From assembly GCF_017309385.1 (NCBI RefSeq), contig NZ_JAFJMJ010000003.1:186001-250000 (forward strand): 64,000 bases of DNA. Direction: 5' to 3'. The DNA is from Amycolatopsis sp. 195334CR (GTDB taxonomy: Bacteria; Actinomycetota; Actinomycetes; Mycobacteriales; Pseudonocardiaceae). Of the stretch, positions 15,845 through 51,206 are shown one piece after another. Both the position numbers and the translations under genes were made by a program. The notes beneath the pieces are model-generated. The model did not search any database. It saw nothing but the letters and a program-made list of their open reading frames with translations, and was not told where the DNA came from. The first letter of the stretch is position 1; every line of letters begins with the position of its first letter.

Positions 15845-15930
15845 CCCCACGCCGTGAATGTGGCTTTCACGGCACTTGCCGCTGTGAAAGCCACAGTGAT
15901 GATGGTGTGTATGGACGGGGGCTGCCCCGG

Positions 15931-35845: not shown

Positions 35846-36961
35846 ATGCACACGATCATCGCCGGGGGTGGGCCAGCGGGGTGGGCGCTGGCCGCGGCCT
35901 GTGCCCGCGCCGGGGTCCGCGTGGCGCTGGTCGACCCCGCGCCGCGGCGGGCCTGGGCGCCGGTCTACGGGGTGTGGCGCGACGAAGTGCCCGGCCTGCC
36001 GGACTCCGCCGTCGCCGCCGTCCCGCACACCGTGCTGGCCACCGCGGTCACCACGCACACCCTCGACCGCGAGTACGTGGTGATCGACAACGCCGGCCTG
36101 CGCGCGTGGCTGGACCACCCCGCCGTGGAGGTGATCACCGGCCGCGCCGAAAGCGTCACCCGGGGCGATCGGGGCGCCACCGTCCGGCTCACCGACGGCA
36201 GGCGGCTCGCCTGCGCGGTGGCCGTCGACGCCACCGGCGCCCGGCGCGCGCTCACCGGCGGCCCGGCCCGGCGACCGGCCGAGCAGACCGCGTTCGGCCT
36301 CGCCTTGGACGAAGCGGCGGCGGAACGGGTCACCGGCCACTCCCCCGGCACCGCCGTGTTCATGGATTGGCGGCCCGCCCACGCCGATTTCCCGACATTC
36401 CTCTATTCCCTGCCGCTCGGCAACGGCCGGACGCTGGTCGAGGAAACCTGTCTCGCGGCGAAACCCGGGCTGCCGCAACACATTCTTTCCGCCCGCTTGC
36501 GCGCGCGGCTGACCGCCGCCGGAGTGGTTGAACCACGCGGACCGGAACGCGTGCGCATTCCGCTCGATCTGCCCATTCCGCGCACGCTCGCGTTCGGCGT
36601 CGCCGGTGGCTTCGCACATCCCGCCACGGGCTACAGCCTCGGCACCGCGTTGCGGCTCGCTTCCCCGGTGGCACAGGCCATCGCGGCCGCGTCGACCCCG
36701 CGCGAGGCCGATCGCGCCGCCCGTGCCGTGGTGGCCTCCGCGGCCGCGCGCGAAGTGCACGCGCTGCGCCGATTCGGCCTCCGGGTATTGACCCGGTTAC
36801 CCTCCGCGCAGGTTCCGGAATTCTTCGAAATGTTCTTCTCCCTGCCACCGGATCGGCAGCGCGCCTATCTGTCCGGCCGTGAAGACCTGGCGGGAACGGC
36901 CGCCGCGATGACGGGGCTTTTCCGGCGCGCGCCATGGCGGATCCGCACCCGGATGGTCTAA
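35846..36961 (+). CDS. Lycopene cyclase-family flavoprotein
   Basis: A 371-residue FAD-binding protein of the CrtY/CrtL lycopene cyclase family, which folds the ends of lycopene into rings. The N-terminal dinucleotide motif is IIAGGGPAGWALAAACARAG. Family segments are YGVWRDEVPGL, AVFMDWRPAH, FLYSLPLGNGRTLVEETCLA and AGGFAHPATGYSLGTALR. The conserved FLEET-like region is represented by VEETCLA. No phytoene synthase or desaturase gene is nearby, so it is either an orphan that works with distant crt genes or modifies another isoprenoid. ATG 35846. Its 3' end overlaps the proposed start of the EAL/GGDEF gene. Confidence 0.8.
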   Translation: MHTIIAGGGPAGWALAAACARAGVRVALVDPAPRRAWAPVYGVWRDEVPGLPDSAVAAVPHTVLATAVTTHTLDREYVVIDNAGLRAWLDHPAVEVITGRAESVTRGDRGATVRLTDGRRLACAVAVDATGARRALTGGPARRPAEQTAFGLALDEAAAERVTGHSPGTAVFMDWRPAHADFPTFLYSLPLGNGRTLVEETCLAAKPGLPQHILSARLRARLTAAGVVEPRGPERVRIPLDLPIPRTLAFGVAGGFAHPATGYSLGTALRLASPVAQAIAAASTPREADRAARAVVASAAAREVHALRRFGLRVLTRLPSAQVPEFFEMFFSLPPDRQRAYLSGREDLAGTAAAMTGLFRRAPWRIRTRMV

Positions 36962-38736
36962 TTGCGCGACCAGCCGGTGAACTTTTGTTTACAGACCACC
37001 CGATCTCGCCCCGGACTCGGCACGATGCGGTCGTGGGCCCGACCCAGATCGCCGTCAGCTTCGCCTTCCAGCCGCTGTACAGCCTGCACACCGGCGGTGC
37101 CGTGGCACTGGAAGCACTCGCGCGCGCCGGAACCGGGGAGCACTCGGTGGCCAGGCTGCTCGACGAAGCCGCCCGCGCGGGCAGGCTCGCCGAGACCGAC
37201 GTGGCACTGGCCGCGCACGCCGTCCGCCAGGAGGCCGACAGCGGGGCCGAGACCGCCGAAGCCCTGCTGCCGCTGCACCTGAACCTCACCGCCGCCTCGG
37301 TGGCCGAGGGCGCCGCGCGGTTCACCCCGCTGCTCGACGTGCTGGACGAGGTGGGCAGGCGCCCGCGCGAGGTGGTGCTGGAGATCGGGCCGCCGTTCAG
37401 CCGGGTGCGCCCGGCCGACCTGCTCGACAGCATGGCCGCGCTGACCGATCTCGGCTTCCGGCTGGCGCTGGACGGGCTCGGCCGCAGCGACCTGCCGCTG
37501 GCCCTGCTGGCCGCGGCCCCGGTCAACACGCTGAAGGTGGACGGCACGCTGACCGCCCACGCCGCGAGCAACACCGCGTCCGCGGTGGTGTTCGAGTCGC
37601 TGCTGCACTTCGCCTCGCGCACCGGCGCCCGGCTGGTGGCCACCGGCGTGGAGAACACCGCGCACTTCGAGGTGGTGCGCGGGCTCGGCATCCGCGTCGC
37701 GCAGGGACCGCTGTTCACCGGGACCGAGCAGGGCGGCTGGCTCGACGGCGTGACCACACCGCTGCCGGTGACCGGCGAGCGGGGCACCGCCCCCGCCGCG
37801 CCGCGGGTGAAGGACTTCCTCAAACCGGCCACCACCCTGCCCGCCACGGCCACCTGCGAGGACGTCCGATCGGCACTGGCCGCGTCCGAGCGGGCCACCG
37901 GCATCATCGGGGTGGACCACCGCAACCGTCCACTGTGGTCGGTCGACCGGGCGCGGTTCCTGCTCGCCTTCACCGGTCCGTACGGGCACGCGCTGCACGC
38001 CAAGCGCTCCGCCGACCGGCTGGCCGACATCCCGCACACGATCGACGCCGAGGCCTCCGCGCTGGAACTGCTGGACGTGGTGGCCGACGCCGACTGGGAC
38101 CGCACCGGGGACGACGTGGTGGTGGTCGACCGGCGCGGCCGCTGCCTCGGCGTGGTGCTGGTGACCGAGGTGGTGCGCGGGGTGGCCGAGGCGAAGGTGG
38201 AGGAGGCCACCGCGCTCAGCCCGCTGACCCGGTTGCCCGGCACCGAAACCGTGGCCAGGGACATCGACCGCCGGATCGCCGCCGGCGAGCCGTTCGTCAC
38301 CGCCTGGCTCGACGTGGACGCGTTCAAGTCGGTCAACGACAACGCCGGGTTCGCCGCGGGCGACGACCTGATCCGGGAACTGGGCCGCACGCTGACCGAG
38401 GCGGCCGCGCGGCTGCACCGGGTCACCGTCAGCCACGTCGGCGGCGACGACTTCCTGGTCGCCTGCGACGTGGACGAGATCGCCACGCTGGCCGCGGCGG
38501 TGCTGGACACCTCGTGGTCGGCCGACGGCCACCCGGTTTCGGTGTCACTGGCCACCCTGGTCTGCATGACCTCCTCGGTCGGCTCCTACCGCGACGTGTC
38601 GAAACTGCTGGCACCGCTGAAAAAGCGCGCGAAGGAGGTGCCGGGGTCGAGCTGGGTGCTCGGCCGCCCCGGCTCCGACCGCGTCGAGGTGCTGCGCGGC
38701 CGGGGTGGCCGCGAGGTCCGCCCGGTCGGCGCCTGA
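36934..38736 (+). CDS. EAL-CBS-like-GGDEF domain protein
   Basis: A protein of up to 600 residues with reversed order compared with common c-di-GMP enzymes. An EAL domain comes first (about 38-270: AFQPLYS, ALEALARAG, HLNLTAAS, EIGPP, LKVDG). A CBS-like regulatory region occupies about 290-410, and the GGDEF domain is last (TRLPGTETVARDID onward, signature GGDDF). In the EAL domain the usual DDFG metal motif is DGLG, so phosphodiesterase activity is doubtful. The GGDDF signature may or may not support cyclase activity. The start is unclear: ATG 36934 overlaps the lycopene cyclase gene by 28 bp without a clear ribosome site, and GTG 37033 is the next reasonable choice. Confidence 0.82.
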   Translation: MADPHPDGLIARPAGELLFTDHPISPRTRHDAVVGPTQIAVSFAFQPLYSLHTGGAVALEALARAGTGEHSVARLLDEAARAGRLAETDVALAAHAVRQEADSGAETAEALLPLHLNLTAASVAEGAARFTPLLDVLDEVGRRPREVVLEIGPPFSRVRPADLLDSMAALTDLGFRLALDGLGRSDLPLALLAAAPVNTLKVDGTLTAHAASNTASAVVFESLLHFASRTGARLVATGVENTAHFEVVRGLGIRVAQGPLFTGTEQGGWLDGVTTPLPVTGERGTAPAAPRVKDFLKPATTLPATATCEDVRSALAASERATGIIGVDHRNRPLWSVDRARFLLAFTGPYGHALHAKRSADRLADIPHTIDAEASALELLDVVADADWDRTGDDVVVVDRRGRCLGVVLVTEVVRGVAEAKVEEATALSPLTRLPGTETVARDIDRRIAAGEPFVTAWLDVDAFKSVNDNAGFAAGDDLIRELGRTLTEAAARLHRVTVSHVGGDDFLVACDVDEIATLAAAVLDTSWSADGHPVSVSLATLVCMTSSVGSYRDVSKLLAPLKKRAKEVPGSSWVLGRPGSDRVEVLRGRGGREVRPVGA

Positions 38737-38843: not shown

Positions 38844-41800
38844 TTGCCCGGTAGTGAGTCGCTGGCGCTCACCCTGCGCCTGGCCGGCGAGGAATCCGAC
38901 GAACTCCGGCGGCGGGCGAACCGGGAGGCGCTGGCTTCGTTGTTCGAGCGAGCCGCGGCGAACAGCGGCCTGACCCCGCGCGCGAGCCGCGACGGCCTGC
39001 TCGCGCCGATCCCGGACGATTCCACGGTCACCTCGGTCACCGGGTTGCTCGACGGCCCGCTGCGCACCGAAGTGCGCCGGTACAACGAGCAATCGGGGGA
39101 AGCGAACCGGCTGCGCGTCCGCGCGTCGCTGCACCTGGCGGACGAAACCGACTACGGGCACTGGCTGGCCGGTGGGGACGCCCTCGTCGGCGGGAGCTGC
39201 GCCGAACTCGAACTCGCGGTGTCGGAGCAGGCCCACCGGGTGCTGCGCCGCCTGCCGGAAGCCGACCTCGACGCGTTCCACCCGGTGCAAACGCTTTACC
39301 ACACCGAGCAGGTGCGGGTTTGGTTCCACGGCGACGCCCCGGATCTGGCGCGCCGGCCGGAACCCGCGCTTCCCGCGCTGCCACCGGGTCCGGCCGAGTT
39401 CGTCGGCCGCGCGGACGCGCTCGCCCGGCTCGACGAGTACCACCGGGACGACGCCGAACTCGTCCTGCTGACCGGCCGGGCCGGACTGGGCAAAACCGCG
39501 CTGGCGGTGCACTGGGCCCGCCACAACGCCGCGCGGTTCACCGGTGGTGTGTGCTACCTCGATCTGGCCGCCTTGCCGGAGGACCCCGAAGCCGCGGTGC
39601 ACGAGGCACACGGCCGCATCCTGCGGAGCCTCGGCGTTTCACCGGCGGACATCCCCGATGCACCGGAAGCCAGGTCGAAGGCCTACGGCGCCCGGCTCAC
39701 CGGACCGATCCTGTTGCTGTTGGACAACCCCCGCACGGCGACGGAGGTCCTCCGCCTCCGCACCTACGGAACGGGTTCGTTCACGGTGACCGTCGCGAAC
39801 GAGTCACCGAAGCGGCTCGCCAAGACCAACGTGCCCCAGATCGCGCTGAACGTGCTGCCGCGCACCGAAGCGGCCGCCCTGGTGAAGTCCATTGTGGACG
39901 TTTCGGATGCGGACGCCGACGAACTGGCCTGGGCCGGTGACTACTTCCCCGGCAGCATCCGGTTGCTCGCCGCCGGGGTCGGGGCGATGACCACCGGCAC
40001 GGTGAGCGAACGGCTCGCCGCGCTGGCCGACGAAAGCCGTCCGCTCGAAGCGGCGGACGACCCGCCGGAGACGGTGGTCGCCCGGTGCGTGCTCCGCTTC
40101 CGCAAGCTGTCGGCCGACCAGCGGCGCCGCCTCACCCTCCTGTCGCTGGCCGGGGACCGCACGATCGTGGCCGCCGGATTGGCCGCGCTGGCCGAGATCT
40201 CCACCGCCGAGGCCGGGCGGGCGCTGGCCGAACTGCACCAGCGCGGGCTGCTCGAACGGCCGGGCGACGCCGCCGAGTACCGGCTGCCCGCCGCGCTGGC
40301 CGACTACGCCGGGGCCAGGCTGCGCGCGGGCGAACCGGCCGCCACCCGGACCGCGGCCGCCCGGCGGCTCGCCGAAAGCAGCGTCCGCCGCGAGGAGTTC
40401 GTCAGCTGGCTCAACGACTCCCCCGCCGTGCACGACGACCTCAAGCGCGACGCGCTCGCCGACGTGCTCGCCGTCCGGCTCAAGCGGATGTCGCTCAGCG
40501 AACCGAAACCGTCGTTCCTGGTGCACCTGGAAGGCCCGTGGGGCTCCGGGAAGACCACCCTGCTCGGCCTGCTCAGCCCGAAGCTGGCCGACGAGTTCCT
40601 GGTGGTCGAGTTCGACGCCTGGCGGCACAACCGGGTCGACCCGCCGTGGTGGGCGCTGCTGACCGCGTTGCGCCAGCGGGTGGCGCGGGACCTGTCCGGC
40701 TGGGGCCGGACCCGGCTGCGCCTGGTCGAGACCATTCGCCGGGTCCGCCGGACCGGCGGGGTGCCGTTCCTGGTCTCCGGCCTGCTGGTGGCCGTCGTGG
40801 TGGCCGCGGCGATCCTGTGGCTGAGCCCGTTGTGGAAGACGCCGAAGGACGTCGGCGACACCGCGCGGGCGGCCACCGCGATCTTCGCCGCGATCACCGC
40901 GATCTGGGTGGCGGGGCTGGTGGCGAGCCGCTTCCTGCTGTGGAACTCGGCCCGGGGCGCGCGGCGGCTGGAGCAGATCCACACGAACCCGATGCAGGAA
41001 GTGGCCGAGCAGTTCGCCTGGCTGGTTTCGCGGTCGAAGCGCCGGGTGGTGTTCTTCGTCGACGACCTGGACCGCTGTTCGGAGGACTACGTCGTCGACC
41101 TGCTGGACGCGGTGCAGACCCTGGTCCGCGACGCGCCGGGCAAACCGCGCAAGGGCCAGCGCTCGGCCTACTTCCTGGTGGCCGCGCACGGGAACTGGCT
41201 GCGCCGGGCCTACGAGGTGCGGTACGAGAAACTGGCGCCGGCGGCCGAGGAACCGACGCGGCCGCTGGGATATCTGTTCCTGGACAAGCTCTTCCAGTTG
41301 TCCGTGCCGATGCCCGCGATCGGCACCGACGCGATGAGCGCCTACTTCAACCGGATCCTCAACATCCGCGAACCGGCCCCCGCCGCGGCCGCGGCCGAAG
41401 AGGCCGAGCTGGTGGCCAGCCAGGTCGAGCGCAGCTCGCACGTGCTGGACGCGATGCGGGCGTGGGAGGGCGCCAGCCCGCCGGTTCGCGAGTACACCGC
41501 GCCCGCCACGGCGAAGAAGCTCGCCGAGTCCGAGTCCGCCGATCTGAGCGAGCACGCGCTGCAGAAGTTCGCCGGGCTGCTGCACCGGAATCCACGCGGG
41601 ATGAAGCGGTTCGTGAACACCTACAGCGTGCTCCGCGCGACGCGCACGCTCGAAGGGGTCGTGGTGGACAGCGACGCGCTGGCCCTGTGGACCGTGCTGC
41701 GCGTGCGCTGGCCGGTACTGGCCGACTACCTGGAGCGGTACCCCGATTCGGTCGGCAAGTCCGACTACGACGAGGAGCTGCTCGCCCTGCTCACCGACCC

Positions 41801-41894
41801 CGAACTCGGGGAAGTGCTCGAGCACGCCCCGGTCACGCTCACCGCCGAACTCATCCGCACCTGCTGTGGTGCCCAGAGCCGGGAAGGCAGCTGA
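38844..41894 (+). CDS. Two-module NTPase: STAND-like ATPase fused to KAP P-loop NTPase
   Basis: A 1016-residue protein, first of the six-gene accessory operon. Residues 1-170 are an unrecognised N-terminal domain. A STAND/NB-ARC-like ATPase follows, with Walker A TGRAGLGKTALAVHW at about 210 and Walker B PILLLLDN at about 290. It is followed by a winged-helix-like region to about 520. The second module is a KAP NTPase with Walker A EGPWGSGKTTLLGLL at about 565. Two transmembrane helices (about 640-662 and 677-700) are inserted before Walker B VVFFVDDLDRCSEDYV at about 734, the KAP hallmark. KAP proteins include F-plasmid PifA, a phage exclusion factor. The start is TTG 38844, eight bases after GGAGG. 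Confidence 0.85.
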   Translation: MPGSESLALTLRLAGEESDELRRRANREALASLFERAAANSGLTPRASRDGLLAPIPDDSTVTSVTGLLDGPLRTEVRRYNEQSGEANRLRVRASLHLADETDYGHWLAGGDALVGGSCAELELAVSEQAHRVLRRLPEADLDAFHPVQTLYHTEQVRVWFHGDAPDLARRPEPALPALPPGPAEFVGRADALARLDEYHRDDAELVLLTGRAGLGKTALAVHWARHNAARFTGGVCYLDLAALPEDPEAAVHEAHGRILRSLGVSPADIPDAPEARSKAYGARLTGPILLLLDNPRTATEVLRLRTYGTGSFTVTVANESPKRLAKTNVPQIALNVLPRTEAAALVKSIVDVSDADADELAWAGDYFPGSIRLLAAGVGAMTTGTVSERLAALADESRPLEAADDPPETVVARCVLRFRKLSADQRRRLTLLSLAGDRTIVAAGLAALAEISTAEAGRALAELHQRGLLERPGDAAEYRLPAALADYAGARLRAGEPAATRTAAARRLAESSVRREEFVSWLNDSPAVHDDLKRDALADVLAVRLKRMSLSEPKPSFLVHLEGPWGSGKTTLLGLLSPKLADEFLVVEFDAWRHNRVDPPWWALLTALRQRVARDLSGWGRTRLRLVETIRRVRRTGGVPFLVSGLLVAVVVAAAILWLSPLWKTPKDVGDTARAATAIFAAITAIWVAGLVASRFLLWNSARGARRLEQIHTNPMQEVAEQFAWLVSRSKRRVVFFVDDLDRCSEDYVVDLLDAVQTLVRDAPGKPRKGQRSAYFLVAAHGNWLRRAYEVRYEKLAPAAEEPTRPLGYLFLDKLFQLSVPMPAIGTDAMSAYFNRILNIREPAPAAAAAEEAELVASQVERSSHVLDAMRAWEGASPPVREYTAPATAKKLAESESADLSEHALQKFAGLLHRNPRGMKRFVNTYSVLRATRTLEGVVVDSDALALWTVLRVRWPVLADYLERYPDSVGKSDYDEELLALLTDPELGEVLEHAPVTLTAELIRTCCGAQSREGS

Positions 41895-43984
41895 TGGAGC
41901 CGCTCGACCCGATCGCCTACGAGGACCACGTGGTCAAACCCCATCGCACCGGTGCCGTCCCGGCCGCGGAGGACGAGCTCTTCGCGCGGTACGCGTTGTC
42001 CGGCGAGATGACCGACGACGAACTGGTCGCCCGCACCGAGGAAGTACGCGCGCTGTGGCGCCGGACCTCGGCCGCGGTCACCTGTCCCCGTCCGCTCAAA
42101 CGGGTCTACGACCACTTCCTGGCCGAGGACGCCGAACTGCGCGCGACCTACGGCGCGATGCTGGAGTCCGCGCAGTGGTGGCGTTCGCGGGAAACCACGG
42201 CCGCGCCGGACGAACTGGCCACGTTCCTGAAGGACGCGTACGAGCCGCTGAGCGCGTTGACCCCGCGCCTGCTTTCCTTGCTGCACAGTGCCTTCCCTGG
42301 AGTCCCACCCCACGAAGTCGAGCGCGCGGTGCAACTGGCCGGGTTGTCGGTCCGGGAAGCACACGAAGTCCCGGTGCCGTCGTGGGTCACCGCCGCGCTG
42401 GCTGCCGGGTTGCCGCTGCGGTGGATCGCCGAGCGCATCGCGTCCGCCGAGGTCCTGCTCGCGGCGCTGGACCAGCGGGCGACGGAGGAAGCGCCGCCGC
42501 CGGAAACCGCCGTGGTGGCCCCAAAACGAGCGGGAACCCCGCCGCGCGAACTCGAAGCGGCGACGAAGGGGCTGTGCGCCCTGCTCCGGTGGGAACCGGG
42601 CGAAGGGCACACGAGTTCCACCCGGTACCGCGTGGGCCGGCACGAGGACGAACCGCCCGGGCCCACCACGGGCGTGGTGGTCACCGAAACCGCCGGGACC
42701 GAGTTCCTCGACGCCGACGCGCCGGTCGGCCCGTGCGTGCACTACGCCGTGTTCGCCCGTTCCTCGGCGGAGGACGAGTGGTCGGCACCGGCACGCACGT
42801 CGATCCCGGTGTTCCCGTCGGTCGAGCTTCGAGAAACCCGCCGCGACGGGGACCGCCTCGAACTCGTCTGGCAGGTCCGGCCGGAGACCACCGAGGTGCG
42901 GATCCGGCGCACCCCCGGTGACGTGGTGGTGCACCGGGCCGTGCGCCGGGAGGACCACGGCCGGGTGTCCTATCAGGACAATGCCGCCGGGGACGCGGCC
43001 TACCAGGTGCAGCCGGTCTACGAACTCGCCGACGGCAGCCGCCACACCGGGGAACCCCTGCACTTCAAGGCCGACGTGTTGTCCACAACGGACGAACCGG
43101 TCACCGTCGAGCTGGAGCCCGCGGCACCGGGCTTCGGTCCCAGGGTGACCGCGCGGTGGGACCGGCGGGCGACCGGTGCGGTCCGGGTCCGCTTCGCCCC
43201 GGCACCGCCGGACTGGCACCCCGGCGACCGGATCTCCGCCACCGCACTGGAAACCTACGGCGAGGAGCTGCGCGGGCGGCCGGAACCGGACGGCGACCGC
43301 GTCCGGTTGACCGGGGAGGTCGCGCCGGGCTGGCAGTGGTACCTGCCGGTGGCCGTGACCGGTGCCGAAGCCACCGTCGGGGTGGCGGCCCGGCTGGGCA
43401 CCGCGCTACCGGTCAGCGAGCCGGTGGCGCAACGGCGTGGCGCGGAGATCGTGCTCTCCTGGATCTGGCCGCCGGGACTGGCCGGGGCCCGGGTGAGCTG
43501 GACGGACCGGGACGGCGAACCGCAGTCGGTGGACATCTCCGCGTACGCCTACGAAGCGAACGGCTGCCGCATCCAGGCCGGGACCGACCCGATCCGCGTC
43601 GAGATCCGCGGCACGGCGACCTCGTCCGACGGGGTCGCGCTGTCGGCACCGGAAATCGTCGAGGCACCCGGATACGCCGCCAGGGTGGACTACACCGTGC
43701 AGCGGAGCCGCTGGCGCCGCCGGGAGGCGACGATCACCTTCGCCGCGATCGACGCGGTGCGCGACGGCGAGGTCGTGGTGATCGCCGCCGCCGGACCGCT
43801 GCCACCCGAACACCCCGCCGAAGGCGTCGAGGTGGCCCGGCACCGGCTCGCGCTGGAAGCGTCCGGGAGCGAGCAGTTCGCCGTCGAACTCCCCGCCGAT
43901 CACCGCTGGGTGGTGTGCTTCGCGGCCGACCCCGGCGCGGTCGAGTTGGGCACGGCCTCGGCACGGGCGGAGGTGCGCCGGTGA
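41894..43984 (+). CDS. FN3-like repeat protein of the GAP1/GTPase operon
   Basis: A 696-residue protein I cannot assign to a named family. The first 200 residues are helical and acidic, without known motifs. From about 225 onward it is a series of beta domains with fibronectin-type-III character: strands such as CALLRWEPGEGHTSSTRYRV, then PVGPCVHYAVFARSS, RLELVWQVRPETTEVRIRR, and later VLSWIWPPGLAGARVSWTD. Four or five such repeats are likely. There is no signal peptide or membrane segment, so these FN3-like domains are probably intracellular. The ATG at 41894 overlaps the preceding stop (TGATG), and the stop overlaps the next start (GTGA). It may act as a scaffold or recognition subunit. Confidence 0.75.
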   Translation: MEPLDPIAYEDHVVKPHRTGAVPAAEDELFARYALSGEMTDDELVARTEEVRALWRRTSAAVTCPRPLKRVYDHFLAEDAELRATYGAMLESAQWWRSRETTAAPDELATFLKDAYEPLSALTPRLLSLLHSAFPGVPPHEVERAVQLAGLSVREAHEVPVPSWVTAALAAGLPLRWIAERIASAEVLLAALDQRATEEAPPPETAVVAPKRAGTPPRELEAATKGLCALLRWEPGEGHTSSTRYRVGRHEDEPPGPTTGVVVTETAGTEFLDADAPVGPCVHYAVFARSSAEDEWSAPARTSIPVFPSVELRETRRDGDRLELVWQVRPETTEVRIRRTPGDVVVHRAVRREDHGRVSYQDNAAGDAAYQVQPVYELADGSRHTGEPLHFKADVLSTTDEPVTVELEPAAPGFGPRVTARWDRRATGAVRVRFAPAPPDWHPGDRISATALETYGEELRGRPEPDGDRVRLTGEVAPGWQWYLPVAVTGAEATVGVAARLGTALPVSEPVAQRRGAEIVLSWIWPPGLAGARVSWTDRDGEPQSVDISAYAYEANGCRIQAGTDPIRVEIRGTATSSDGVALSAPEIVEAPGYAARVDYTVQRSRWRRREATITFAAIDAVRDGEVVVIAAAGPLPPEHPAEGVEVARHRLALEASGSEQFAVELPADHRWVVCFAADPGAVELGTASARAEVRR

Positions 43985-45159
43985 GAAAGCTCGTCTGCCC
44001 ATACTGCTACGAAGAAGTCTCCCTGTCGGGACTGCACTTCCAGTGCCACGGCCGCGGTTCGGCCGCGGGCAACGGCTGCCGCAAGCGGGTGGACGAGAAC
44101 CGGCGCCAGCTCACCGGTTACGCGCTGGAGTCCTGGCCCACCTTCCCGGCGAACGGCCGCGCCAAGGCCGGGGTCTGCCCCGAATGCGGTGCGGTGTCCC
44201 GGATCCGCGCCTGCCCGAACTGCCACACCACGCTGCCCACCACCTTCGGCGAGGACCCGCGCAGCCCGCTCGTCGGGCTGATCGGCGGCAAGGGCGCGGG
44301 CAAGACGGTGTTCCTCACCGTGCTCATGCACGAACTGCAGCACGCGATCCGCCGCCGGTTCGGCGCCGACACCCGGCTCATCGGCGACCAGCACGCCGGC
44401 GAGGCGTCCACCAAGCGCTGGTTCGAGACCTACGAACGCGCGCTCTTCGTGGACAAGGTGCTGCCGGAGACGACCAGGTCGGCGATCGACGGCGTGCGCG
44501 CGCCGATCGTCTTCGAATGGCGCACCTCCCGCCGCCGCCTCGGCCGCCGGAGCAGGCCGCTGAGCAGCACGCTGTCCTTCTACGACGCCGCCGGCGAGGA
44601 CATGACCACGCAGGACAGCGTGTACACCCAGCACTACCTGCGGTGGACCAGCGCGCTGATCGTGGTGCTCGACCCGTGGCAGCTGCCCGGCGCGCGCGGG
44701 CGGATCACCGTGCCGGACAACGCGATCCGGGAGAACGAACCCCCGCAGGAGGTGCTCAACCGGGTCACCGAGGCGTTGCGGCAGCGGACGAACTCCGGGC
44801 TGATCCCGGTGCCGATGGCGGTGGTGTTCGCCAAGATGGACTCCTTCTTCGACTCGCTCGGCCCGGCGCACCCGCTGATGCGCCCGCCCGCGGCGGGCCC
44901 GGCCTACGACGAGCGGGCGGGTGCCGCCACCCACGAGCACGTCCTGGAACTGCTCGGCGATCTGGGCGCGGACGCCATCGACGCGCACCTCCGGCTCAAC
45001 TACAAGACGTACCGGTACTTCGCGGTGTCCGCGCTGGGCGCCACCCCGGACTACGCCAGCAACTCGGTGAACGCGCGCGGCATCCAGCCGCACCGGGTGG
45101 ACGAGCCGCTGCTGTGGCTGCTCAGCCGGTCCGGGATCGTCGCCAGGACGCGGAAGTGA
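43981..45159 (+). CDS. Zinc-ribbon GTPase (double-GTPase-like), first of two
   Basis: A 392-residue P-loop GTPase-like protein. Zinc-binding cysteines occur at the N-terminus (LVCPYCYEEV, then FQCHGRG and NGCRK) and in a second ribbon (GVCPECGAVSRIRACPNCHTT). The G1 loop is LIGGKGAGKTVFLTVL at about residue 96, G3 is FYDAAGEDM, and G4 is VFAKMDSF, which keeps Lys-x-Asp but lacks the usual Asn. The pattern fits the DO-GTPase families described by Aravind and colleagues in GAP1-containing conflict systems. No membrane segment. Start GTG 43981, coupled by GTGA. Its stop also overlaps the GAP1 gene, so partners should be made in equal amounts. Confidence 0.82.
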   Translation: MRKLVCPYCYEEVSLSGLHFQCHGRGSAAGNGCRKRVDENRRQLTGYALESWPTFPANGRAKAGVCPECGAVSRIRACPNCHTTLPTTFGEDPRSPLVGLIGGKGAGKTVFLTVLMHELQHAIRRRFGADTRLIGDQHAGEASTKRWFETYERALFVDKVLPETTRSAIDGVRAPIVFEWRTSRRRLGRRSRPLSSTLSFYDAAGEDMTTQDSVYTQHYLRWTSALIVVLDPWQLPGARGRITVPDNAIRENEPPQEVLNRVTEALRQRTNSGLIPVPMAVVFAKMDSFFDSLGPAHPLMRPPAAGPAYDERAGAATHEHVLELLGDLGADAIDAHLRLNYKTYRYFAVSALGATPDYASNSVNARGIQPHRVDEPLLWLLSRSGIVARTRK

Positions 45160-47555
45160 GCGCCCGCCGGGCCGCCTTCGGCTCGCTGTACTACACCGAC
45201 TGCCTGCCGGGCCAGGGCCTGCGCGGGGTGGCCGGGTTCCAGTTCCAGGCCACCTCCCCCGAGGTCGGCCACGACGAGATGTCGCTCGTGCAGCGGTCGG
45301 CGCTGTACGAGCCGCCGCCGGAGTGGATCCGGCGGCGGCGCCCGGTCGAGCTGTACCCGCCATCGCTGGCGCACGTCTTCGACGACCGGTTCGTCACCGC
45401 GCGCGGCATCTACCTCGGCACCGAGGCCAACGGCATGCGCGAGGGCAACCAGTTCACCCACGCGATCACCACCGGCGACCCCGAGGCGTACGGCCAGCTC
45501 CGCCCGGCGCAGCTGTGGGGCGCGCCGTGGTGGGCGGAGCACCCGGCCCCGACCACCCGGTGCGACGGGGTCGGGGCCGAACCGCAGCCGGGGCCGTGGA
45601 CCGCGCACGCCGTGCGGTCCTGGGTGGCCGGCCGGCCGGGCGCCGCGGCCTTCCTGATCGCCGTGGTGTCGGCGTTGTCCGCGCTGAGGTCCGGCAGCCC
45701 GCAGCGGATCGTGTTCGTCGCCGACGACCCGGAGCCGGTGTTCTGCTGGCTCATCGCCGGGACCCTGCTGCTGCCGCAACGGGTGGCGCTGCGGGTCAGC
45801 TTCCGCGCGTTCGTCAGCAACCTGCAGTACAGCAGGCACGACGTGCTGGCGGTGCACCCGGACTGGGCCGGTTCGGTGCGGGAGTCCGGGTTCTGCGTGT
45901 TCGACCTGCGCGACGGCACGCACACCGTGGCCAGGACGGCACCGGTCGCGGAGTTCTGGGTGCCGCGCTTCCTCGACGCCGACCCGCTGGACGTGATCGA
46001 CGCGGTCGAACTGGCCGACCAGTTCGGCGGGGCGGCAGATCCGGGCGAGGAACTGGCCGCGCAGGACCGGCTGGCCGCGAGCACGCTGCGGCTGCGCGAA
46101 CCGGTACGGGCCGCCGACGCCGCGGCGCTGGCGAACTGGCTGAAACGGCAGCCGCCGGAGGTGATCGCCGAGGTGGGCCAGCCGCTGGCCACGCAGATCC
46201 TCGCCACCTCGCCAGGCCTGGAAGCGCGGTACGACCTGTACGAAGCGCTCTACGAACGCAGCGACGCCCGGCTCCGCGAACAACTCCGGCTCGGCGTGCT
46301 GGCCGCCGAACTGCTCGCCGCGAGCACCCACCACACCTGGGAGGACTCGCAGCGCCACCTGCGCGGCCTGCGTGGCCTGCCGTCCGGCGAGCTCACCGGG
46401 GACGCCGCCCGGCGGGAGGTGGCCGCGGCTCTGGAACGGGCAGAACCCGCCCAGTGCGACGGCCTGCTCCAGATCGCCACCCGCCACGGCGTGCCGGTCG
46501 CGGTGGACCGGCGGCAGCGCGCGTTCTGCCGCTGGTGGGCCGACCACCCGGACCTGGACATCCACCCGGCGCGGTGGAACTGCGCGCCCGCGCTGGTCCT
46601 GCTGCTTCGCGAGGAACTGCGGCGGCGGCTCGACGACCCCGGCGAACGCGGCACCACGCTGACCGCGCTCCGGACGCGGTGGTGGCGGGTGCTCTGGACC
46701 TCGATCCACGAACCGGCCCAGCCGCTGGACCGCGAACTCGCCGGTGCCGCCGCGGCCACCGAAGACCCCGGGCTCCGGCGCGACGTGCTCACGCACGTGG
46801 CCCGCAAGGCGACCGAGCACGACGACCTCGCCGCGTGGACCGCGCTCACCTCGCAGACCCGGCTGGGGCTGACCGAAGCGGCGGTGTTCCTCGGCGGCCT
46901 GCCCGCCGGGCACCGGATCTCCGACGGACTCGCCGAGCGGATGCTCGACCTGGCCGCCCGCGGCAACCGGGGCCTGCCGACCGCGGCCAAGCTCGACCTG
47001 CTGAACCGGCTCGCCGCGCTCGGCCACGAACCGCGACGGCACCCGTTCGGCGGGTGGCACCACGAAGACCGCCTGCTCAGCGCGTGGCTCGCGCACCTGC
47101 GCTCGCCCCGGCGCCCCGGGCCGGAGCCGTACGAACTGGACCAGCTCAGCGAAGCCGTGCTGGTGGCCAGGGAGGACGAGGTGATCCCGGTGCTGATGGG
47201 GGCGCGCGGCCCGTACGCCGCCCGCGCGCTGCGCGGCGCCGGGAACGCCGTGCACCGGCTGCTGCTCACCTGGCTGCCGCGCCTGCTCAAGCGCGAGGCG
47301 GGCGCCGACTCCCTCGCCGTGCTCGCGCTGGACCTCCAGTGGTCGGGCGTGCTGCCCGACGCCGAGAACGAGGCGCTGCTGTCCATCCTCGCCGACTGGA
47401 CCCGGCTGCTGGACCGGCCGGGGCGCCAGCGCATCACCACGCTCGTCGGCGAACTCGACGAGGAGAACCTGCACGTGTGGCAGAGCTGGATCAAGCGGTA
47501 CGGCGTCCGGTCCCGGCGCGCGCGGTCGCGGGCCGCCAAGCACCCGCGGGAGTGA
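45156..47555 (+). CDS. GTPase-associated protein 1 (GAP1-N/M/C type)
   Basis: A 799-residue protein encoded between two GTPases. The N-terminal segment AFGSLYYTDCLPGQGLRGVAGFQFQATSP is the hallmark of the GAP1 N-terminal (N2-type) domain. The middle section (about 130-260) is a compact alpha/beta region with FLIAVVSALSALRSG and IVFVADDPEPVFCWL. The remainder is a long helical C-terminal region. The family was predicted to regulate the co-encoded GTPases, perhaps as a GTPase-activating or coupling factor; I know of no experimental proof. GTG 45156 overlaps the previous stop by 4 bp. No signal peptide or membrane segment is present. Confidence 0.82.
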   Translation: MSARRAAFGSLYYTDCLPGQGLRGVAGFQFQATSPEVGHDEMSLVQRSALYEPPPEWIRRRRPVELYPPSLAHVFDDRFVTARGIYLGTEANGMREGNQFTHAITTGDPEAYGQLRPAQLWGAPWWAEHPAPTTRCDGVGAEPQPGPWTAHAVRSWVAGRPGAAAFLIAVVSALSALRSGSPQRIVFVADDPEPVFCWLIAGTLLLPQRVALRVSFRAFVSNLQYSRHDVLAVHPDWAGSVRESGFCVFDLRDGTHTVARTAPVAEFWVPRFLDADPLDVIDAVELADQFGGAADPGEELAAQDRLAASTLRLREPVRAADAAALANWLKRQPPEVIAEVGQPLATQILATSPGLEARYDLYEALYERSDARLREQLRLGVLAAELLAASTHHTWEDSQRHLRGLRGLPSGELTGDAARREVAAALERAEPAQCDGLLQIATRHGVPVAVDRRQRAFCRWWADHPDLDIHPARWNCAPALVLLLREELRRRLDDPGERGTTLTALRTRWWRVLWTSIHEPAQPLDRELAGAAAATEDPGLRRDVLTHVARKATEHDDLAAWTALTSQTRLGLTEAAVFLGGLPAGHRISDGLAERMLDLAARGNRGLPTAAKLDLLNRLAALGHEPRRHPFGGWHHEDRLLSAWLAHLRSPRRPGPEPYELDQLSEAVLVAREDEVIPVLMGARGPYAARALRGAGNAVHRLLLTWLPRLLKREAGADSLAVLALDLQWSGVLPDAENEALLSILADWTRLLDRPGRQRITTLVGELDEENLHVWQSWIKRYGVRSRRARSRAAKHPRE

Positions 47556-47558
47556 GTC

Positions 47559-49184
47559 GTGGAACGCGTGGGCATCGTGGTGCTCGCCATCGTGGCGGGC
47601 GCGGGTGTGCTGATCGGGTACTACCTGCTCGCCGAACTCGCCGTCGGCTACTTCGTCTGGCCCGCCTTCGTCCTGCTGCTGCCCGCGGCGGGCGCGGCGG
47701 GCGCGCTCACCGCCGCGGGCACCGCGGTGCTCACCGTGAGCGGGCCGCGCCGGCACCGGCCCGTGACGGTGACCCCGGCGATGGTGTCCGAAGAGGACTT
47801 CCCGCTGCTCGTCCCGCGCCACCGGGCCGGGCGCCGGGACCACGCCTGGCCCGCCTACCTGCCCGGGCAGGCGCAGGTCGACCTGTGGGCGGTGGCGGGC
47901 AGGCTGGGCGGGCTCAGCCGGGGCGGCTGGTACCCGGTCCGCCAGTGCGCCCGGCTAGTCCGGGAACTGCACGAACGGGTGCAGTGGACGCTGTTGGTGG
48001 TGGGCTGGCCGGTGGCGGCCGTGGTGCTCGGCGTCGCGTTCGCCTGGTCGGCCGGAGTGGTGCTCGGCGGGACCGCGCTGCTGGTGGTCGTCCTGCTCCT
48101 GCTCGGCTCGCTGGAGGCACTGCGGCTGGCCGTCGTGGGCGGGGCACGCGGACTCGACGCGCTGGTGCGGTCCCGGCTCGGCGGTCCGTCCGGGTGCCCG
48201 GAGTGCTACCGGGCGGTGCCCCTGCCGTGGTTCCGCTGCTCCGGCCGGGACTGCGACCGCACGCACCACGACCTCCGGCCCGGCGCGCTCGGCGCGTGGT
48301 GGCGGCGGTGCGGGTGCGGGCGGTTGCTGCCGACCACGGTCTTCCGCGCGGCCCGGCGGCTGACCGCCTACTGCCCGGTCTGCTCGGCGGATCTGCGCGA
48401 GCGCGCGGCCACCATCCCGGAGGTGCGCCTGCCGGTGATCGGCGCGGTGTCGGCGGGCAAGACGCGGCTGACCTTCGCGGCCCTGCTCGAACTCGGCGAC
48501 GTCGAATTCGACGACGAGGCCAGCAGGCGGGTGTTCGACGAGGGCGCGCGGATCATCCGCGAGCGCGAGGAGACCTCGAAGACCGCCGCCGGGCACTTCC
48601 CCGCCGCGGTCACCGTCCGCCTGCCGGTGCGCCGTCGGTTCGGGCGGGTCGGCGAGCACGCCTACCTGCACCTGTTCGACGCCGCCGGGGAGTTCTACCA
48701 GGACTGGGACGAGAACGCCGCACTGTCCTTCCTGGACAACGCCACCGGGCTGGTGCTCGTGCTCGACCCGTTCACCGTGCCCGCGGTGCTGGCCGAGACG
48801 GCCGGGCAGGAGGTGCTGGGCCGCGCGCACCCGGCCACCAGGGACGCCGAGGCCACCTACCAGCTCACCGTGCAGCGGCTCCGCCTGTTCCGGGTGCCGA
48901 TCGACCGGCTGCCGCTGGCCGTCGCGGTGGTGAAGGCCGATCTGCTCACCGAGGTCGCCGCCGCGGCCGAACTGACCCCCGACGGCCCGGCGATCCGCGC
49001 CTGGCTGGCCGGCGCGGGCCTGGACAACCTGGTGCTCGCAGCCGACCGGGATTTCGGGGCGGTGGGCTACTTCCTGGTGTCCTCTTTGGAGGGATGGACG
49101 CCGGGGCACCCGCTGTCGGCGGCCGCCCCGCTGCGCTGGCTGATCGGCAGGCGCGGCCTCACCACCGACCTGGAGGCGCGATGA
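47559..49184 (+). CDS. Membrane-anchored zinc-ribbon GTPase (double-GTPase-like), second of two
   Basis: A 541-residue protein. Two transmembrane segments lie at the N-terminus (about 3-30 and 32-60) and two more at about 140-190. A zinc-ribbon region follows (GCPECYRAVPLPWFRCSGRDC, then RRCGCGRLL and YCPVCSADL). The P-loop GTPase domain has G1 VIGAVSAGKTRLTF at about residue 293, G3 HLFDAAGEFYQDWD, and G4 VAVVKADLLTE. The G domain resembles the one encoded at 43981 but differs in size and membrane anchoring, so the two are diverged paralogues. It would place the system at the membrane, like the KAP protein. GTG 47559 is 3 bp after the GAP1 stop. Confidence 0.82.
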   Translation: MERVGIVVLAIVAGAGVLIGYYLLAELAVGYFVWPAFVLLLPAAGAAGALTAAGTAVLTVSGPRRHRPVTVTPAMVSEEDFPLLVPRHRAGRRDHAWPAYLPGQAQVDLWAVAGRLGGLSRGGWYPVRQCARLVRELHERVQWTLLVVGWPVAAVVLGVAFAWSAGVVLGGTALLVVVLLLLGSLEALRLAVVGGARGLDALVRSRLGGPSGCPECYRAVPLPWFRCSGRDCDRTHHDLRPGALGAWWRRCGCGRLLPTTVFRAARRLTAYCPVCSADLRERAATIPEVRLPVIGAVSAGKTRLTFAALLELGDVEFDDEASRRVFDEGARIIREREETSKTAAGHFPAAVTVRLPVRRRFGRVGEHAYLHLFDAAGEFYQDWDENAALSFLDNATGLVLVLDPFTVPAVLAETAGQEVLGRAHPATRDAEATYQLTVQRLRLFRVPIDRLPLAVAVVKADLLTEVAAAAELTPDGPAIRAWLAGAGLDNLVLAADRDFGAVGYFLVSSLEGWTPGHPLSAAAPLRWLIGRRGLTTDLEAR

Positions 49185-49333
49185 CCGACGAAGAACCCGA
49201 GCGGCCCGCGTTCTCCGTCCGGGTGAACCGCCTCCTGCTCACCGGCGGCGCGGTCGCCTTCGCCGCCGGGGTGGTGTGGGCCGCCGTGCTCGTCGGCCCC
49301 TGGCTCTGGCGCGCGGCATTCGCCTGGTATTAG
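49181..49333 (+). CDS. 50-residue membrane protein closing the GAP1/GTPase operon
   Basis: A small protein with an acidic N-terminus (MTDEEPERPAFSVRVNRL) and one long hydrophobic segment (about residues 18-45) ending in aromatic residues. The ATG at 49181 overlaps the stop of the second GTPase (ATGA), which makes it very likely a real coupled gene. The stop overlaps the 3' end of the convergent response-regulator gene by 4 bp. It may be an effector, anchor or regulator; function unknown. Confidence 0.75.
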   Translation: MTDEEPERPAFSVRVNRLLLTGGAVAFAAGVVWAAVLVGPWLWRAAFAWY

Positions 49334-49980
49334 GCGGGTTTGATGAACCCGGATTCGTAGGCCTTGATCACCGCCTGGGTGCGGTCCCGCGCGCCGAGCT
49401 TCGCCAGCAGGTTGCCCACGTGGGTCTTCACCGTCTGCACACCGAGGAAGAGCTCCCCGGCGATTTCCACATTGGACAGTCCTTTGGCGACCAGGCGGAG
49501 CACCTCCGACTCGCGTTCGGTCAGGCCCGCGGCGGCCAGGCCGTCCTGGTGGCCACCGGTGTCGCCGTGCGTGGCGGCCAGGCGGCGGATGGCGGCCGGG
49601 AAGAGCAGCGAGTCGCCCGCGGAGACCGTGCGCACCGCGGCGACGATCTCCTCCGGCCGGGCACGCTTGAGCAGGAACCCGCTGGCCCCGGCACGCAGCG
49701 CGTCGTAGACGTAGTCGTCGTTCTCGAAGGTGGTCACCACCACCACCTTCGGCGGGTTGTCCATGGTGGACATCAGGTGCTCGGTGGCGCGGATCCCGTC
49801 CACCGCGGGCATGCGCACGTCCATCAGCACCACGTCGGGCCGCAGCCGGGCGACCAGGCCGGGCACCTCGGCGCCGTCCCCGGCCTCCCCCACCACGCTC
49901 AGCTCCGGCTCGGACTCGATGATCGCCCGCAGCCCGGCCCGGATCAGCTGCTCGTCGTCGACCAGCAGCACCCCGATCAC
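49330..49980 (-). CDS. NarL/LuxR-type response regulator
   Basis: A 216-residue transcription factor. The receiver domain has the acidic pair in VLLVDDEQLIRAGL, the phospho-acceptor Asp in DVVLMDVRMPAVDG and the conserved Lys in GFLLKRARPEE. The C-terminal LuxR-type helix-turn-helix (about 150-205) contains LTERESEVLRLVAKGLSNVE and LGVQTVKTHVGNLLAKL. GTG 49980 overlaps the kinase stop by 4 bp (GTGA) and is preferred over GTG 49995. Partner of the adjacent kinase; targets are unknown. Confidence 0.95.
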   Translation of the reverse strand: MIGVLLVDDEQLIRAGLRAIIESEPELSVVGEAGDGAEVPGLVARLRPDVVLMDVRMPAVDGIRATEHLMSTMDNPPKVVVVTTFENDDYVYDALRAGASGFLLKRARPEEIVAAVRTVSAGDSLLFPAAIRRLAATHGDTGGHQDGLAAAGLTERESEVLRLVAKGLSNVEIAGELFLGVQTVKTHVGNLLAKLGARDRTQAVIKAYESGFIKPA

Positions 49981-51206
49981 TTCCCGGCTCCCCACGGCAA
50001 CCGCACCACGACCTCCCAGTGTTCTCCGTTGCGCCCCGCGCTGAACTCCCCGCGCAGGACCTCGACCCGCTCCGCCATGCCGCGGACCCCGCGCCCGCCG
50101 GTGCGCCGGGACGCCACCGGCGCCCCGGCGGGATTGCGCACCAGCAGCTCCAGCCGGTCCCCGCCGATCGCCACGCGCAGCGCGACCGGGACCTTACCCG
50201 CGTGCCGCAGCGCGTTGGTCAGGCATTCCTGCAGGATCCGGTACGCCTCGCGGGAGACCACCGCGGGCACCTCGGTCACCTCGCCGCTGATCTCGGCCTC
50301 CACCGGCACCCCGGCCAGCCGGGTCGCCGCCAGCAGGCCGGGCAGTTCGGTCAGGCCCGCCTGCGGTGCCTTGCCGGACTTCTCCTCGCGCAGCAGGCCC
50401 AGCACGTGGTCCAGGTCCTCCAGCGCCGACCGCGCGGAATCCTCGATGGCCTCCAGCGCGCGCTCGGTGAAGTCCGGGTCCCGCCGCAGCGTGCGCCGGG
50501 CGGCCCCGGCCTGGATGGTCACCACGCTCAGCGCGTGCCCCACCGAATCGTGCAGTTCCCTGGCCAGCCGGTTGCGCTCGGCGAGCTGTTCGGTGCGCTT
50601 CTCCAGCTGGGCGATCCGGTCGGCGGCGGAGATGCCGAGCAGGATCGCCGCGGCGCGGGCGAGCAGGCCGCCCACCGCCCAGATCGCGTAGACCAGCCCG
50701 ATCACCAGCGCCAGGAACAGCACCGGTACCCAGGCGCCGGCCCAGCCGCGCGGCACCGGGATGCCCTCCTCGGTGGCGATCGCGATCCGCCCGGTGAACG
50801 GTCCCGAGAGCGACAGGACGAAGAACACCGGCAGCGCCAGGCTCAGGAAGCTCAGGATGCCGCCGGCCAGCACGTGCGCCACGAACATGGCGCTCGACCG
50901 CAGGCGCACCGGCCAGTTCTCCGCGCGGCCGAAGGTGACGCCCGGCGCCGGGTCGTCCAGCAGTTCGCGGACGGCCGTGCCCTCCAGCACCCGCACGGCG
51001 GGGATGAACGAGCTGGCCACCATGGCCAGGATCGCGGCCAGCCCGCCCACCGCCGAGGCGGTCCCGATGTCAGCGGCGAACGGCGCCACCGACGGGATCG
51101 CGATCGAGGCGAAGATCAGGTAGGGCACGATCAGGGCGCCGCCGAGGATCAGGTAGGCCCAGCGGCGGTACGTCGACCGGTTCACCACCGGGTTCAGCAG
51201 GCGCAC
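49977..51206 (-). CDS. Sensor histidine kinase (HisKA_3 type)
   Basis: A 409-residue membrane kinase. Four to six transmembrane segments in the first 200 residues form the sensing region, without a large extracellular domain. The dimerisation/phosphoacceptor helix is RNRLARELHDSVGHALSVVT, with the phospho-His in ELHDS. The ATPase domain shows ILQECLTNALRHAG (N box) and GGRGVRGMAERV (G box). It is coupled to the response regulator by a GTGA overlap. The start at GTG 51206 lacks a strong ribosome site. Similar small NarL-type pairs often sense cell-envelope or antibiotic stress; here that is only a guess. Confidence 0.93.
   Translation of the reverse strand: MRLLNPVVNRSTYRRWAYLILGGALIVPYLIFASIAIPSVAPFAADIGTASAVGGLAAILAMVASSFIPAVRVLEGTAVRELLDDPAPGVTFGRAENWPVRLRSSAMFVAHVLAGGILSFLSLALPVFFVLSLSGPFTGRIAIATEEGIPVPRGWAGAWVPVLFLALVIGLVYAIWAVGGLLARAAAILLGISAADRIAQLEKRTEQLAERNRLARELHDSVGHALSVVTIQAGAARRTLRRDPDFTERALEAIEDSARSALEDLDHVLGLLREEKSGKAPQAGLTELPGLLAATRLAGVPVEAEISGEVTEVPAVVSREAYRILQECLTNALRHAGKVPVALRVAIGGDRLELLVRNPAGAPVASRRTGGRGVRGMAERVEVLRGEFSAGRNGEHWEVVVRLPWGAGK

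Follow-up and report, generated by a model that had tools for sequence, protein, structure and literature searches.

A GAP1/DO-GTPase operon of Amycolatopsis sp. 195334CR with a STAND-KAP protein in the usual place of HSP70: a candidate membrane-attached conflict system

A compact operon of six genes lies at positions 38844-49333 of a 64,000-nucleotide stretch of Amycolatopsis sp. 195334CR (assembly GCF_017309385.1, contig NZ_JAFJMJ010000003.1, positions 186,001 to 250,000), referred to here as the window. It encodes a STAND-KAP protein, a putative FN3 protein, two zinc-ribbon DO-GTPases, a GAP1 protein and a one-helix protein, and the six-gene observation is confirmed as real. The operon is best described as a rare version of the predicted GAP1/DO-GTPase kind of system, and the STAND-KAP protein in the HSP70 place is the feature that appears to be new. 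We consider it about an even call that the products form a membrane-attached GAP1-N2/DO-GTPase switch, driven by nucleoside triphosphates, in which STAND-KAP has replaced the usual HSP70 module and a conflict response is the most likely outcome.

All six genes are on the + strand. The STAND-KAP protein (g1, 38844..41894, 1016 amino acids) is followed by the FN3-repeat adaptor (g2, 41894..43984, 696 amino acids), the soluble DO-GTPase (g3, 43981..45159, 392 amino acids), GAP1 (g4, 45156..47555, 799 amino acids), the membrane DO-GTPase (g5, 47559..49184, 541 amino acids) and the one-helix protein (g6, 49181..49333, 50 amino acids), the last recognised by its position and helix. The junctions measure -1, -4, -4, +3 and -4 base pairs (bp), the three 4-bp overlaps reading GTGA, GTGA and ATGA, which confirms the tight joining reported in a first-pass annotation made from the letters alone. 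Translation of g1 starts at a TTG with GGAGG ahead of it, and a relative, G004, has the identical start context. A codon-usage gene caller returned the identical six genes, a partly circular result given that it was trained on five of the six and the upstream EAL gene. Independent support for the gene calls comes from conservation, since G004 retains all six genes at 77-95% identity and a third genome, G192, has all six components: g1 is 51%, GAP1 49% and g5 49% identical, g2 and g3 are recognised by profile, and the g6 counterpart is a one-helix open reading frame (ORF) of 42 amino acids. The apparent absence of the second GTPase from G192, a gene-caller result, was ruled out by a whole-genome search that placed the gene directly after GAP1. 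A promoter scan of the operon found none, and a terminator scan found one where 2.8 were expected.

The domain identities first proposed for these genes are borne out, and the domains found are not those of housekeeping proteins. In g4, the Pfam models GAP1-N2, GAP1-M and GAP1-C score 109.7, 48.7 and 78.1 bits, all above the cut-off. The DO-GTPase2 model scores 29.1 in g3 and 57.4 in g5 (cut-off 27). Both GTPases have an intact Walker A (GGKGAGKT and GAVSAGKT, respectively), DAAGE and CxxC pairs, and share the Walker A with Glu-bearing DxxGE of paired-paralogue DO-GTPases. Walker A lies at residue 102 of g3, DAAGE at 202 and AKMD at 284, with three CxxC pairs; g5 has four predicted N-terminal helices (6-24, 32-50, 144-162 and 167-185). 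Neither g2 nor g6 has a Pfam match.

Pfam, motifs and homologues divide g1 into two NTPase parts. The first, at residues about 180-510 with Walker A at 211, is a NACHT/NB-ARC-type domain followed by a helical region, the arrangement of STAND proteins; NACHT scores 27.3 bits, barely above its cut-off of 26.7 and with a best stretch of 206-249 only, and the AfsR model covers 179-510 at 75.1 bits, far under the cut-off of 1430 for that full-length model. The second (541-932) scores 90.7 bits against KAP_NTPase (cut-off 20) and has the family's P-loop domain, with two hydrophobic helices, 642-660 and 676-694, between Walker A (564) and Walker B (about 736). Together with the four helices of g5 and the one of g6, these predicted helices agree with the membrane anchoring suggested at first pass. 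The N-terminal region, residues 1-175, has a sub-threshold match to DUF6931 (E 0.0087, 16.6 bits, cut-off 27), and its homologues among the matches listed are g1 itself and an Amycolatopsis lurida protein only; a by-eye reading of it as nucleotide-cyclase-like was without support and was dropped. The A. lurida protein is 88% identical to g1, and among the best 120 of 601 matches only these two give full-length coverage, the others covering 13-37% of g1 with a KAP domain listed for none. Two peptide patterns run over 84,980 species genomes returned two loci, GM8 (G192) and L130 of Actinosynnema sp. ALI-1.44. The latter holds a KAP protein of 494 amino acids (L130:10031-11515) that shares 49% identity with the KAP half of g1 and is unfused to STAND; a separate gene in the stretch has a STAND match, the 21-kb stretch has no GAP1, FN3 or DO-GTPase match, and by eye the adjacent genes resemble a molybdenum-type oxidoreductase cluster. 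Sequence searches of solved structures with g3, the KAP part, GAP1 and an alignment of the GAP1 N/M part gave nothing useful.

The FN3 nature of g2 is the least secure identification in the operon. Pfam gave no match at E<=10, fn3 included, and g2 is homologous to the FN3 proteins of other GAP1 loci by family profile. When the wide, 83-member family alignment was compared by hhalign with fn3 domains of the same genome, residues about 215-290 matched (probability 81, E 1.4e-6); a 3-member alignment of the KAP clade gave probability 2.8 and E 0.0056, against 0.1 and 0.53 for a reversed control made with this smaller alignment only. The FN3 protein of another locus (L100, 11768-14125, - strand) has a weak Pfam match to a TY-Chap-type chaperone domain (E 0.38).

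The link drawn at first pass to the systems of Kaur, Burroughs, Iyer and Aravind (eLife 2020, PMC7159879) is upheld by the GAP1-N2/M/C domains, the DO-GTPase2 pair and the FN3 protein. As that paper describes them, GAP1-N2 systems share a GAP1-N2/M/C protein, an FNIII protein and a pair of DO-GTPases with zinc ribbons, of which one has four N-terminal helices; the partner varies among tubulin, HSP70/GrpE and a kinase/PP2C, and in the window it is STAND-KAP. The whole word "KAP" has no occurrence in the main text, the part searched, and KAP cases may be listed in the figures and supplements. The window operon has the core order of the HSP70/GrpE theme, its variable gene likewise lying upstream of FN3, but the Pfam scan finds neither HSP70 nor GrpE in it, and STAND-KAP stands instead.

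This variable slot was followed through 113 loci, namely the window, one locus each from G004 and the same-genus genome G017, and a further 110 stretches that mostly span 20 kb, with some shortened by contig ends. In the 112 neighbourhoods with a core gene from the gene caller, the gene directly upstream of FN3 was HSP70 in 66, STAND-KAP in 3 and another gene in 16; in the remainder it was on the other strand (3), the place fell at a contig edge (2) or no FN3 had been called (22). HSP70, GrpE, vWA and tubulin were named by Pfam on one representative each, and all counts based on the gene caller (slot, small ORF, tree labels, fusion) may miss genes. A recount in stop-to-stop frames found the FN3-GTPase-GAP1-GTPase core in 78 of the 113 loci and KAP in 3. 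Because the KAP profile had been built up iteratively within this clade, a very distant KAP could escape it: of the three further KAP genes in the window's genome, it recovered two (E 6e-13 and 2e-11) but not the third. Searching those frames for KAP motifs likewise returned only the three KAP loci already counted. In a GAP1 tree of 101 rows, built by a quick method with Shimodaira-Hasegawa-like approximate likelihood ratio test (SH-aLRT) support only, the three KAP loci group as a single clade (99) inside a clade of 39 rows (99). The remaining 36 rows of that larger clade carry the label HSP70 in 27 cases and "none" in nine, and at least one of the nine (L082) has HSP70 and GrpE past a 200-base gap where the labelling ended. 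A single replacement of HSP70 by STAND-KAP is the simplest reading.

The sixth gene is most likely the detached C-terminal, fifth helix of g5. The membrane GTPase described by Kaur et al. (PMC7159879) carries four N-terminal helices and one C-terminal helix, whereas in the window the last is on a separate ORF. Small ORFs of the g6 type (31-73 amino acids, one hydrophobic helix, start -30 to +60 bases from the preceding stop) follow the GTPase that comes after GAP1 in 64 of 82 loci, in 47 exactly at a 4-bp ATGA-type overlap; a recount without the gene caller gave 66 of 86, with 48 at the overlap. Elsewhere they occur after 9 of 1066 non-core genes, 1 of 92 other DO-GTPases, 4 of 112 GAP1, 0 of 91 FN3 and 0 of 3 KAP genes. 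Their Arg and Lys residues number 178 before the helix and 54 after it, which suggests an N-in orientation. Among the g5-type GTPases, the small ORF without a C-terminal helix is found in 64 and a fused helix without the ORF in five, 13 lack both ("neither") and no case has the two together (Fisher p 3e-4; the fused helix was scored by hydropathy). The motif P..Y...R, a regular expression picked after the sequences were seen, is present in 57 of the 64 small ORFs and all five fused tails, against a mean of 13.3 and a maximum of 23 of 64 in shuffled sequences. When 1867 proteins were searched with a profile built from the small ORFs, three of the five highest-ranking proteins above 100 amino acids were matched in GTPase C-terminal tails (ranks 2, 3 and 5, namely L151, L141 and L071; E 3e-4 to 3e-3); by hydropathy, L071 had been placed in the "neither" group. 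Proteins of other kinds hold ranks 1 and 4. The one at rank 1, the joint best match, is the 213-residue product of L140 gene 2 (L140:5426-6067, - strand), which directly follows a membrane GTPase and has the small-helix segment at its N-terminus. The helix thus seems to move among GTPase tail, free ORF and next gene, and this pattern of fusion and fission supports contact between g5 and g6.

The system is patchily distributed. GAP1-N2 is found in 3 of 24 same-genus genomes, the window's own included (3 of 40 of all searched), one of the three carriers being of a different, minimal type; it is found in 58 of 390 genomes of the family and in 50 of the 394 sampled across the class. One conserved locus in all relatives, a finding that would have spoken against a conflict system, is therefore not what is seen. 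The minimal type, in G017, is a GTPase-GAP1 pair (L010:4186-8187) on a long branch of the GAP1 tree; judged by eye, a membrane protein of 208 amino acids is encoded ahead of the pair and a MiaB-like gene comes after it. In genome G791, GAP1-N2 matches of equal score lie on different contigs (L145 and L146), each with the same four-gene core, either as a duplicated system or as an assembly duplicate.

The window operon sits between an EAL-GGDEF gene (36934..38736, + strand; Pfam) and a gene for a LuxR-type response regulator (49330..49995, - strand; flank scan). The EAL-GGDEF protein is matched in 57 of 60 genus members, and the 30 best-scoring EAL loci were compared, 28 of them besides the window and G004. 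In nine of the 28, the EAL gene and a convergent response regulator gene are separated by 11-392 bases that contain no operon (identity 76-85% in eight and 60% in one), so the site is empty in at least nine relatives; in the other 19, no response regulator occurs in the 107-1512 bases covered beside the EAL gene. G004 has its operon at the same site, and that of G192 lies among different flanking genes. Elsewhere in the window, ARAGORN calls a possibly spurious tRNA-Ala (ggc; 15762-15850, - strand), whose position overlaps the terminal part of a long called gene on the opposite strand.

The KAP part of g1 resembles defence proteins. It matches the PADLOC profiles PDC-S20 (9e-16), QatA (9e-14) and PifA (8e-10), the last in keeping with the kinship to PifA proposed at first pass, and 14 plasmid records (Rhizobium, Agrobacterium, Rhodococcus) at 24-27% identity. 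The operon is not a Qat system, as QatA scores 59.1 against a cut-off of 600 and the QatB-D profiles are unmatched in it. Tmn is a KAP NTPase reported to inhibit several phages, T2 and P1 among them, through a mechanism yet to be explored (PMC11846954). Both Tmn and g1 have two transmembrane segments, but Tmn is described there as one protein (TmnA), whereas the window KAP is fused to STAND within a GTPase operon.

In the working that we propose, where all wiring beyond the g5-g6 contact is inferred from operon order, the paralogous GTPases, g3 soluble and g5 held by four helices and that of g6, would form a pair at the membrane's inner face. GAP1 would hold and regulate the pair through its N/M part, with its C part as scaffold, and the FN3 protein may act as the adaptor that links this core to g1. 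On a signal, the STAND NTPase would oligomerise and drive the membrane-inserted KAP ATPase, which would alter the membrane, most likely in an anti-phage, cell-sacrificing response and less likely in a stress response. In predicted structure, the N/M part of g4 appears DENN-like by fold and the C part is an alpha-solenoid; GAP1 residues 1-303 show fold-level likeness to DENND10 and FLCN-FNIP2, DENN-module GTPase regulators, and to TagF. GAP1, encoded beside a GTPase pair, may be compared with FLCN-FNIP2, which acts on a Rag pair. It is a tentative and rather doubtful proposal that GAP1 is a bacterial DENN-like module regulating a membrane-bound GTPase pair by Rag/FLCN-like logic, rewired in this lineage from HSP70 to a STAND-KAP output that kills or seals infected cells, with the sixth gene a detached GTPase helix. 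In 2 of 53 members, the GAP1 N/M alignment has weak Pfam matches to TY-Chap-type chaperone domains (best E 0.003).

Immune function is a prediction, placed slightly ahead of stress because of the patchy presence, the exchanged module and the KAP kin in defence. Several observations weigh against the proposed working. Foldseek with GAP1 gave no match at E<=0.001, no GAP1-DENN sequence similarity is detectable, so that the likeness is one of fold alone, and the AlphaFold model of g1 is poor (mean predicted local distance difference test score 46). Four of the five fused-helix cases, those in the tree, share one 5-row clade and may be a single event. The window's genome has a single GAP1-N2. PADLOC matches at E<0.001 fall in the KAP part only, none in g2-g6, and no recognised defence or mobile gene is among the ten flanking genes scanned, which are ordinary (ABC transporter, subtilase, HD phosphohydrolase, two-component pair, ABC1 kinase, LysR and others). 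Carriage by phage or plasmid was rejected as GAP1 is unmatched in both collections, the KAP part having been run against plasmids only; this absence is weak evidence because the actinomycete share of the collections is unchecked.

An envelope or protein-folding stress system, in which the switch would respond to membrane damage or misfolded protein by remodelling the membrane, with phages as at most one trigger, is a real if lesser possibility. It draws on the lack of a defence neighbourhood, on the HSP70 of most sister systems, often with GrpE, which fits proteostasis, and on the literature, where two papers tie DO-GTPases to membrane stress as well as conflict (PMC7159879, PMC11237479), the PSP paper among them (PMC11237479) presenting a family protein as a predicted player in membrane-related stresses and citing a YcjX structure. 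However, patchiness within one genus and an exchanged module beside FN3 are less usual for general stress responses, and the KAP relatives are phage-defence factors. A module for development or surface signalling in filamentous actinobacteria (sporulation, hyphal membrane organisation), apart from conflict and stress, is unlikely; GAP1-N2 is enriched in multicellular bacteria (Table 1 of Kaur 2020, PMC7159879), but most close relatives, whose life style is presumably the same, are without the system. That g1, g6 or both are chance neighbours of a four-gene GAP1 system is largely refuted and very improbable, for although KAP adjoins GAP1 in only 3 of 113 loci and Actinosynnema has a related KAP gene separate from any GAP1 gene, the 1-bp g1-g2 overlap recurs in G004, G192 keeps g1 beside FN3 among different flanking genes, and small ORFs follow the GTPase far more often than non-core genes.

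GAP1/DO-GTPase systems have so far been predicted from sequence, and no experimental work on them was found in the open-licence PMC literature. The operon in the window is small, with six genes, and its output module, KAP, can be recognised; it offers a testable claim on how GAP1 and the GTPases meet and an explanation of the tiny ORF that occurs in most two-GTPase operons among those examined. The origin of the DENN module has been placed in the eukaryotic stem lineage, according to one study (PMC3521125); if GAP1 is DENN-like, that origin would deserve re-examination.
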